NCBI GenBank assembly: GCA_030018135.1
Contig: JASEGJ010000029.1
Coordinates: 1 to 7,523, forward strand
Direction of reading: 5' to 3'
Length of the DNA stretch: 7,523 nucleotides
Source: Candidatus Hodarchaeaceae archaeon
GTDB taxonomy: Archaea; Hadarchaeota; Hadarchaeia; Hadarchaeales; Hadarchaeaceae
Positions 4,143 through 7,523 of this stretch are shown here, in pieces. Position numbers and translations under genes: made by a program. Position 1 is the first letter of the stretch; each line of letters starts with the position of its first letter. The notes beneath the pieces are model-generated. The model was not told where the DNA came from. It worked only from the letters and a program-made list of their open reading frames with translations, and ran no database searches.

Positions 4143-5360
4143 ATGATGGAGCGAAGAATTCAAGCGATTGCTGTTTTGAGCATTTTGATTTTAGTCGCCG
4201 GTTTAACGATTTCCTTTACCTTGCTGAATCCGAAAAGCTCATTGAGCCCTCCATATCTCTCGAGAAGCTTCAAGAACTTCTCCCCGGTGTTGAGAATAAA
4301 AATGGAGATAATCCCAATAAAAGATCCGATCCCTGAAACCCGCGGTTCGGATACCATTAGAACTTACAGTTTCGGCAAACCACCGGAATTCACGAGCGAA
4401 AGAGAAAAAGAAGAATGGATTAATAAAATTATAGAGCTCGCTAAACGATTTGACCCCCCCCGATGACCGCGTCAAACAATTTGGCCGCCTCGGGGTCAAG
4501 CTTCCGTTTTGGCATCCTGAAGGGCCCGTCGTGACTTATGGCGTGGGTGGCGACGGATACTTCCATGTAGGCTTCAAACTTGATATGCCTTTCACCGAGG
4601 TCATGATGGTGGAGATATTTAAGGCAATAAATAAAGAGGCCAAGGAAATCGAATTTAGGGGAGAGGTGCCAATACATTTTGGTCGAGCTGGCCCTAGCAT
4701 AAGCGACGCCCAAGAAGAACCTGAGCGAAGGAACGTGTATCGTCCTATTATCGGAGGGATACATATCCAAAATAGGGATCAGGGTGTCACAATATATTCA
4801 ACGCTGGGTTGGTCCGCTGTGAGAAGCGGGGTGAATGGATACGTCGTTGCTGGACATATTGGCTATAACAGGCCAATACCTAATGGGTCGACGATATATC
4901 AGCCGACTTATCCTAGCTATCCGGTGGGAGTGGTCAAAGCGGTACCCACCTACCCTTATTATGCCGACGTTGCATGGGTTGAATACAGCAATGTGGCCCA
5001 AAAATTTTTCTTACTCCGACCTTAATCGTCTCAGTCAATTTTTATCAAGAGCCATCCGTTAACTCTACCGTTTATATGTCCGGTTATGGGTCTGGTCTTG
5101 TGAACGGAGTTGTGAAATATGTGTACGTAGATGCACCATCTAATGAATTTGGTACGCTTTATCGGCAGGCGCTGGCCACCTACTCACGTAGAAAGGGTGA
5201 TAGCGGTGCCCCAGTTTATATTCCCACGTAATATGGACGTGGAATAGTTGGTATTCACTCGGGAGCGAATTGGCACAATGGCGAGTACCTCGCCCGTTTT
5301 TCACCGTGTTCTGGGGTCAACACTGAAGTGGGCGCTGTTCCGCTGACCACATGGCCGTGA
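4143..5360 (+). pseudogene. Broken secreted chymotrypsin-like (S1) serine protease
   Basis: The joined reading frame would encode about 405 residues. Residues 7-29 are a hydrophobic signal or anchor. About 107-195 look like a propeptide. RPIIGGIHIQ at 200 opens the catalytic domain. The catalytic triad can be read: His238 in VVAGHIG, Asp275 in YADVAWV, and Ser354 in GDSGAPV, followed by IVGIHSG. There are three lesions. First, a run of eight C at 4454-4461, where seven would keep the frame, ends the first frame at TGA 4464. Second, the A5T5 run at 5000-5009 has lost one base (or gained two), and the old frame ends at TAA 5023. Third, an in-frame TAA at 5229-5231 lies nine codons after the catalytic Ser, with clear homology on both sides; a CAA to TAA change would explain it. 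The frame then runs to TGA 5358. Two lesions are in homopolymers and could be sequencing errors; the stop is not of that kind. Divergent from the anchored regulator. Confidence 0.85.
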
Positions 5361-6306: not shown

Positions 6307-6573
6307 TCATCGCCTTAAATGGCCCAGCTCCTCGCCGACCTCGAGCAGCGCCCAAGCCCAGATGAGGCACTCGAAGCTCCTTATCAGGTCGCCCCGCCCG
6401 AGGAAGTGCCTGTGGTCCCGATTGTAGGCTCGGGCGTTTTCAAGCAACTGCCCGCCGCGGTCGTCGAGGGGCTCGGCAGCCGAGAGGGCGTCATCGAGCC
6501 TGCGGGACCACTTCTCGATTTCCTCTGCCAACTCCTGCTCGAGCATGCTATCCAACCACATCGCCCGGCGCAC
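6307..6573 (-). CDS. DUF357 family protein
   Basis: A small helical archaeal protein of unknown biochemical function. The family core is visible as ARAYNRDHRHFLGRGDLIRSFECLIWAWALLE (shown by residues 47-78), preceded by an acidic helix ELAEEIEKWSRRLDDALS. The start is uncertain. GTG 6573 gives 88 residues and overlaps dphB by 26 bp. ATG 6561 gives 84. ATG 6546 gives 79 and lies one base after the dphB stop (TAGCATG); all keep the whole core. Tight coupling to dphB suggests co-expression but does not reveal the function. Confidence 0.85.
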   Translation of the reverse strand: MRRAMWLDSMLEQELAEEIEKWSRRLDDALSAAEPLDDRGGQLLENARAYNRDHRHFLGRGDLIRSFECLIWAWALLEVGEELGHLRR

Positions 6574-7324
6574 CAGCGAACACCCTGAGCGCCTCGGCCT
6601 CGAGGAAGTGCAGCCTGCCGGGCACGATGAGCACGTGCGGCGGCGGCCCGAAGCCTAGCCCGTGGAGGTGTTTGACCAGGTCGGCTCGAACCAGCGCATC
6701 GTCGGAGCCAGCGCGGGCCACGACCACGGCGAGCGTGTCGGGCGTAAAAGCGCCTCTCTTCAGCTTGGACTCCAAGTTGAGCATCACATCGATCGCCTCG
6801 TTTGCGCTCATCGCGCGACCCTCCTCAGCTCTAAGGTCTAAGAGCAGTAGGGTGTGCAGCCCGCGCTCCAGGTTTTCGGCGAGCACCTCGTAGGGCGTTT
6901 GCGAGGGTTGGTCCGGAAACGGCACCGTGGCCGAGCGCCCGAACTTGTAGCTCTGCAGTCCCGCCAAGCCCAGCGCCGCGGAGTGGATGGATGCGGCGTG
7001 CACGATCCGCGTCTCGACGCCTGCCCTCGCTGCTCGGAGGCGGAGGTCGATGTGCGTGGTCGCCACCATGGGGTCGCCGGGCACGAGGAATGCCACCTTT
7101 TTGACCTTGGCGGCCTCGAGTATATCGTCGGGGCGCTGCTCGACTACCTCTCGGTTTATCACGCGAATGGGTTTGCCAATGATGCGTTCAAGTCCTTGAA
7201 GGTCTAGCTTGAAGACGACGCCGGTATAGAACTCGGCGTAGACGACATCCGCCTCCCGCATCTCGCGTAGTCCCCGCAGAGACATGTCTTCGCCGTTTAA
7301 GCCGAGGCCGATGAAGACGAGCAT
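6548..7324 (-). CDS. dphB: Diphthine synthase
   Basis: A SAM-dependent methyltransferase that methylates the aminocarboxypropyl-histidine on elongation factor 2 to give diphthine, the second step of diphthamide synthesis. It belongs to the tetrapyrrole-methylase-like fold, as shown by the N-terminal FIGLGLNGEDMSLRG, the SAM-site segment VPGDPMVATTH at 81-91, and the later AASIHSAALGLAGLQSYKFG and VARAGSDD. Its 258 residues are full length. The ATG at 7324 has no clear Shine-Dalgarno. The predicted transcript start about 12 bases upstream suggests a very short leader. It is the first gene of a run with DUF357 and the TauE-like permease. Confidence 0.96.
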   Translation of the reverse strand: MLVFIGLGLNGEDMSLRGLREMREADVVYAEFYTGVVFKLDLQGLERIIGKPIRVINREVVEQRPDDILEAAKVKKVAFLVPGDPMVATTHIDLRLRAARAGVETRIVHAASIHSAALGLAGLQSYKFGRSATVPFPDQPSQTPYEVLAENLERGLHTLLLLDLRAEEGRAMSANEAIDVMLNLESKLKRGAFTPDTLAVVVARAGSDDALVRADLVKHLHGLGFGPPPHVLIVPGRLHFLEAEALRVFAGAPGDVVG

Positions 7325-7337
7325 GTGGACCGTAAAC

Positions 7338-7346
7338 GCTTAATTC
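7338..7346 (+). promoter_or_regulatory. TATA box for tRNA-Lys
   Basis: Plus-strand GCTTAATTC is centred about 30 bases before the 5' end of the tRNA, the usual spacing for an archaeal tRNA promoter with a leader of a few bases. The stronger-looking CTATATAGG at 7357-7365 is too close to the tRNA to serve it. Confidence 0.4.
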
Positions 7347-7365: not shown

Positions 7366-7394
7366 TTTCAAGGGCCCGTGGCTCAGTCTGGCAG

Positions 7395-7413
7395 ACGTAG
7401 GTGTGCGGCCAAA
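7395..7413 (+). other. tRNA-Lys intron 1, D stem (22/23), 19 nt
   Basis: The bulge-helix-bulge fits exactly. The central 4-bp helix is TGGC (7389-7392) with GCCA (7408-7411). The 5' bulge AGA (7393-7395) is cut after G7394 and the 3' bulge AAA (7412-7414) after 7413. The inner stem is CGTA/TGCG with loop GGTG. The outer helix is weak (C7388-G7415 only), as in relaxed BHB motifs. Removal restores D-stem pairs 22-25. Confidence 0.85.
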
Positions 7414-7428
7414 AGCGATCGGCTCTTA

Positions 7429-7445
7429 GCAGCGAGCTGGGAGCA
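7429..7445 (+). other. tRNA-Lys intron 2, canonical 37/38, 17 nt
   Basis: A complete BHB. The outer helix is ATCGG (7418-7422) with CCGAT (7447-7451). The central helix is CTCT (7423-7426) with GGAG (7440-7443), one T-G pair. The 5' bulge TAG (7427-7429) is cut after A7428, and the 3' bulge CAA (7444-7446) after A7445. The inner stem is CAG/CTG with loop CGAG. Splicing yields loop CTCTTAA. Confidence 0.9.
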
Positions 7446-7523
7446 ACCGATTGGTCGAGGGTTCGAATCCCTCCGGGCCCGCCACATCTATTGGTACGAT
7501 TCTGGAGATCCGCAATATGGCGT

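Follow-up and report, generated by a model that had tools for sequence, protein, structure and literature searches.

A tRNA-Lys(CUU) gene of a Hadarchaeota genome was found to contain two introns, one of which interrupts the D arm through a relaxed motif, and the only splicing endonuclease detected in the same genome is of a type reported to cut canonical motifs only. This discordance between the type of intron and the type of enzyme is the useful finding of the present analysis. According to published work, alpha4 enzymes cut the canonical BHB only (PMC4033280; PMC6379350), whereas relaxed introns are efficiently removed only by (alpha-beta)2 and epsilon2 enzymes, an ability tied to the loops called CSL or ASL (reviews, PMC4033280, PMC6379350). 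The accepted co-evolution story couples relaxed tRNA introns with the acquisition of a beta subunit and a special loop by the enzyme; an entire archaeal class that has relaxed introns but neither beta subunit nor loop would, if true, be a natural counter-example.

The gene lies near the end of the stretch of DNA that was analysed as a whole (7,523 nucleotides, hereafter the window). An earlier note had described a double-intron tRNA-Lys(CUU) including a D-arm intron at 7372-7484, and its description was confirmed by direct reading. A script that lists possible BHB-type introns and checks the RNA left after splicing, with neither T33 nor A21 required, recovered the gene independently. The gene consists of five pieces followed by an encoded CCA (Table 1). 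All stems of the spliced product are fully paired: acceptor GGGCCCG/CGGGCCC (7/7), D GCUC/GAGC (4/4), anticodon AUCGG/CCGAU (5/5), and T GAGGG/CCCUC (5/5). With the anticodon loop CUCUUAA, G73, and the conserved T8, A14, G18G19, and TTCGAAT, the cloverleaf is complete after splicing. ARAGORN called no tRNA on 7372-7484, and the top Rfam match over the gene was a weak tmRNA, which was rejected as false and reflected mainly the acceptor and T arm. Such intron-bearing genes can be overlooked or misnamed by tRNA finders.

Table 1 The tRNA-Lys(CUU) gene and its surroundings in the window.
Feature	Position	Strand	Basis
Exon 1, tRNA positions 1-22	7372..7394	+	direct reading, script
Intron 1, 19 nt, D arm 22/23, relaxed BHB (HBh')	7395..7413	+	BHB geometry, relatives, intronless orthologues
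Exon 2, tRNA positions 23-37, anticodon CTT at 7425-7427	7414..7428	+	direct reading, script
Intron 2, 17 nt, 37/38, canonical hBHBh'	7429..7445	+	script; 37/38 introns of relatives
Exon 3, tRNA positions 38-73, and encoded CCA (7482-7484)	7446..7484 (exon proper to 7481)	+	direct reading, script
Conserved A+T-rich upstream element AAACGCTTAATTC (AAACACTTAATTT in relatives)	7334..7346	+	orthologue upstream regions by eye
TP_methylase family protein, divergent neighbour	6548..7324	-	Pfam PF00590; tblastn against relatives' loci

The A+T-rich element may act as box A for the tRNA gene, for the divergent gene, or for both, and for the neighbouring methylase we infer the name diphthine synthase (dph5), which is probable. 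The Glu-tRNA synthetase (GltX) encoded in the window showed 75, 67, 67, 69, and 59% identity to its nearest records, several of which are labelled Hadesarchaea or Ca. Hadarchaeum. Judged from this protein, the host is a Hadarchaeota MAG and not a member of Thermoproteales, and the earlier idea that the gene is a lineage marker was not borne out. High expression of Hadarchaeota is reported in PMC12918454. Elsewhere in the window, a 191-aa reading frame (4450-5025, + strand) had no Pfam match, and a HEARO match at 685-840 (E 0.52, far below the cut-off) was set aside as chance.

The pairing of both introns was read as follows. The central helix of intron 1, UGGC/GCCA (7389-7392/7408-7411), consists of four Watson-Crick pairs and is accompanied by the bulges AG^A and AA^A and by the intron stem CGUA/UGCG (7396-7399/7404-7407; h' 4). 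Because the exon-side helix amounts to only 1 bp (h 1), the motif is relaxed (HBh'/BHL); the central helix, a proper bulge, and the intron-side helix are present and the exon-side helix is missing. Intron 2 has the central helix CUCU/GGAG (7423-7426/7440-7443), the bulges UA^G and CA^A, the intron stem CAG/CUG (7430-7432/7437-7439; h' 3), and the full anticodon stem (h 7), namely a canonical BHB with a 4-bp central helix, two 3-nt bulges, and helices on both sides. These helix and bulge counts agree with the assignment of a relaxed motif to 22/23 and a canonical one to 37/38 in the earlier note. When intron 1 was shuffled, equal pairing arose in about 3.5 of 10,000 trials (P about 0.00035). 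Owing to an A repeat, intron 1 taken as 7396-7414 gives an identical mature RNA, and the choice between the two was made by BHB geometry alone.

The BHB conformers were not preferred by ViennaRNA, which gave -15.0 kcal/mol for a continuous helix in the anticodon arm vs -8.1 kcal/mol for the BHB, and -8.2 vs -7.5 kcal/mol in the D arm. For this reason, the BHB folds claimed for both introns stand as a comparative result and not as a free-energy result: geometry and comparison support them, but the predicted minimum-energy fold is not the BHB.

The comparison covered the tRNA-Lys(CUU) genes of relatives within Hadarchaeota. The 22/23 intron was present in nine genomes, namely that of the present gene (G000) and eight relatives (G003, G006, G008, G009, G010, G011, G013, and G017). 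It is 17-25 nt long in these genomes and invariably ends in GCCAAA, and the pairing of GCCA with the D loop is constant in the nine species. The intron stem is always paired (3-8 pairs) and differs in sequence, for example CGTA/TGCG, TGCA/TGCA, TGTCAGGA/TCCTGACA, and TGCCAGG/CTTGGCA. Its first three pairs are kept in 27/27 cases, two of the three having changed on both sides (CG to TA). Covariation in these three pairs is modest, since 85% of positions still pair when the stem halves are swapped between species. Stronger evidence is given by the longer, wholly different stems and by intronless orthologues, the D arm being uninterrupted in the tRNA-Lys(CUU) of seven genomes (G005, G014, G015, G019, G020, G021, and G022). 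Most of the loci, with or without the intron, adjoin the same divergent methylase gene. The junctions of intron 1 are fixed because the intronless orthologues run through the D arm, and the splice sites proposed at 22/23 and 37/38, with their lengths of 19 and 17 nt, are in accord with the BHB geometry. Comparison confirms the D-arm intron as real, and the observation in the earlier note is right to the base. Other intron positions (37/38, about 30/31, and 9/10) are variably present in the tRNA-Lys(CUU) of relatives; the second intron of G017, read by eye, is at 37/38.

Other tRNAs, whose inspection the earlier note had recommended, were sought by scanning the genome in stretches (1.108 Mb in 45 contigs, 92.9% complete). 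About ten tRNAs carry relaxed D-arm introns, namely Thr-GGU, Thr-CGU, Lys-CUU, Val-GAC, Gly-GCC, Gly-CCC, Gly-UCC, Leu-CAG, Arg-GCG, and Asp-GUC. The nine D-arm introns solved by the script have an exon-side helix of 1-3 pairs and an intron stem of 3-7 pairs, and that of Thr-CGU, which has an unusual T loop, was read by eye. Their positions lie within 20a-24 and are exact only to within one or two bases. Asp-GUC is the only tRNA-Asp found in the genome, and Asp-GUC, Val-GAC, Gly-GCC, and Thr-GGU are apparently the sole readers of their C/U-ending codons. For the codons of several of these tRNAs no other tRNA was found, from which we infer that relaxed introns must be successfully removed in vivo. 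The cell may be able to do without Lys(CUU), because an intronless tRNA-Lys(UUU) is present in the genome.

Only one EndA gene was found in the genome; it adjoins trpS and encodes a 179-aa product in a 189-aa open frame. EndA was searched in 27 genomes of the class in three ways (PF01974, a family profile, and an M. kandleri beta-domain query). Exactly one EndA was detected in 22/27 genomes, including all ten that are >90% complete as well as a 4-contig and a 9-contig assembly, and none of the three queries found EndA in the remaining five, all of which are incomplete. A second subunit was found with these queries in no Hadarchaeota genome searched. Applied to other archaea, the PF01974 search detected two subunits in three genomes and longer frames of 318 and 389 aa in two more, as expected of alpha'2 and epsilon enzymes. 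Second matches of the beta-domain query in G025 and G026 (E 0.07-0.08) were regarded as noise; the family profile repeated neither, and the weak stretch in G025 overlaps a long opposite-strand frame that by eye resembles an Fe-S assembly protein (SufB/D).

The predicted fold of EndA (mean pLDDT 86) matched best the M. jannaschii structure 1a79 (Z 22.7, rmsd 2.0 over 171 residues, 43% identity), and the alpha subunits of (alpha-beta)2 enzymes scored 1 to 3 lower in Z. In M. jannaschii numbering, EndA has Y115, H125, K156, and the acidic stretch D164-D168, which we take to be residues of the L10 loop. The nine-residue Crenarchaea-specific loop (CSL; K44, P45, and R46) of A. pernix corresponded to a gap in 20/20 Hadarchaeota EndA proteins aligned. 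EndA is thus encoded by a single short gene with N and C domains and the catalytic Y-H-K, as in the alpha4 type, and its 179 aa are at variance with the three-unit epsilon2 protein of ARMAN (about 390 aa). These features suggest that EndA most likely assembles as a homotetramer, to which the acidic L10 loop, whose role is described in PMC6379350, lends supporting detail.

The earlier note had taken the relaxed motif to imply a heterodimeric-type endonuclease, and this expectation was not supported, as only a CSL-less, M. jannaschii-like alpha EndA was found, with no second subunit. It had also held that the intron would be refuted if the genome had only a homotetrameric endonuclease; only an alpha-type EndA was detected, yet the intronless orthologues and the conserved pairing show the intron to be real, so that the failure lies with the marker rule. 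The rule that a relaxed motif implies an (alpha-beta)2 or epsilon2 enzyme therefore appears to fail in Hadarchaeota as a class, unless a highly divergent beta subunit went undetected, and this would warn against taking intron type as a marker of enzyme type.

Comparison with known systems places the exception in the combination. The tRNAs of Thermoproteales and Caldiarchaeum (PMC4033280, PMC3293823) likewise have at least two short BHB introns per tRNA in the D arm and at other non-canonical positions; however, Thermoproteales/Crenarchaeota are reported with (alpha-beta)2 enzymes, in contrast to the one CSL-less alpha-type EndA of the Hadarchaeota genome. In the Asgard groups Atabeyarchaeia and Freyarchaeia, a lineage unrelated to Hadarchaeota, most tRNAs are similarly interrupted, with multiple introns and non-canonical positions (PMC11291895). 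The EndA of M. jannaschii (1A79, alpha4) is alike in size, in the numbering of the catalytic triad and L10 loop, and in having no CSL, but its type is reported to cut canonical BHB only, whereas Hadarchaeota tRNAs carry many relaxed sites. The enzyme of Methanopyrus kandleri (5X89), the best PDB sequence match, also has no CSL; it is, however, an (alpha-beta)2-type enzyme with "constrained broad" specificity, unlike the single short gene of Hadarchaeota. Hence tRNA-Lys(CUU) joins the known multi-intron tRNAs, and the combination of enzyme and intron is an exception unreported in the open-licence literature searched, in which no paper on tRNA introns of Hadarchaeota or Hadesarchaea was found.

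Based on the sequences, we consider it likely that the alpha-only EndA cuts both introns of a functional tRNA-Lys(CUU) and that RtcB, which is present in the genome, ligates the exons. The gene would be transcribed from a nearby upstream promoter, and the precursor would be cut at four sites by the sole splicing endonuclease detected. The 37/38 intron would be cleaved through its canonical BHB, and the D-arm intron through a relaxed motif of two bulges and a 4-bp helix, in which the missing exon-side helix is perhaps replaced by the outer D-stem pairs 10-25, 11-24, and 12-23. With somewhat less assurance, we favour the wider reading that a homotetrameric, loop-less EndA routinely processes relaxed D-arm sites in Hadarchaeota; broad specificity would then have evolved in the absence of a beta subunit, a CSL, and an ASL. 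It could stem from the conserved GKPLSGG segment, which includes K35/P36 and occupies the place of the CSL, or from the enzyme recognising the tRNA body.

A variant, which we regard as a tentative possibility, is that the alpha-only enzyme reaches relaxed sites through the pre-tRNA body, by contacts with the D stem or elbow, with its active site unchanged. The alpha'2 EndA of A. fulgidus is reported to cleave a BHL at 37/38 on full-length pre-tRNA (PMC6379350), and eukaryotic TSEN is reported as a parallel. In the whole pre-tRNA, the outer D-stem pairs around intron 1 can form without energy cost (-41.4 vs -40.1 kcal/mol), but just two D-stem pairs are left for introns at 23/24.

It is unlikely that Hadarchaeota possess a divergent structural beta subunit missed by the searches, which would make their enzyme a regular (alpha-beta)2 endonuclease of broad specificity. 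Crenarchaeal beta subunits are sometimes very short and divergent, and the Hadarchaeota EndA profile, when run against the PDB, detected 2zyz_A, a short beta chain from Pyrobaculum (E 2e-4), but none of the A. pernix beta chains even at E 10, so that an extremely divergent beta subunit could escape it. Against this stand the single gene returned by three kinds of query in 22 genomes, some in few contigs, the detection of second subunits in other lineages, and the acidic L10 loop of the Hadarchaeota alpha subunit, which is absent from A. pernix alpha, together with the lack of the CSL. It is very improbable that the tRNA-Lys(CUU) gene represents a degenerate, unspliced copy, with the intronless Lys(UUU) reading both codons: no stem or conserved base has been lost, the gene encodes CCA, the intron pairing is kept across genera, and other tRNAs with D-arm introns seem indispensable.

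Several further observations were made. The RtcB frame (874 aa; G000 C11:68229-70859, L257/L258) contains a long insertion, perhaps an intein, around model position 50. Position 33 is C, not U, in Gly(CCC) (G000 C11:117941-118034) and Gly(UCC) (C40:53028-53118), and a probable tRNA-Cys with an intron in the T loop (about 59/60) was located at G000 C42:22156-22238, its Rfam match being sub-threshold. In G026 (L233) and G025 (L236), the tRNA-Lys(CUU) read by eye has three introns, at 9/10, in the anticodon stem, and at 37/38. These two belong to five genes with a 9/10 intron (the others being L221, L226, and the elongator-Met-like L139:1309-1360 on C40, the one of the five in G000), and in 5/5 the acceptor 5' strand is repeated (GGGCCC, GGGCCCG, or GGGTCCG) immediately upstream of the gene. 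An upstream repeat with at least 6 of 7 bases pairing with the 3' acceptor strand was found in 0/29 other tRNAs of the genome; by the same metric two of the five genes score 7, and the other three are exact GGGCCC repeats by eye. The upstream repeat might retain the 3' acceptor strand during pairing of positions 4-7 with the intron.
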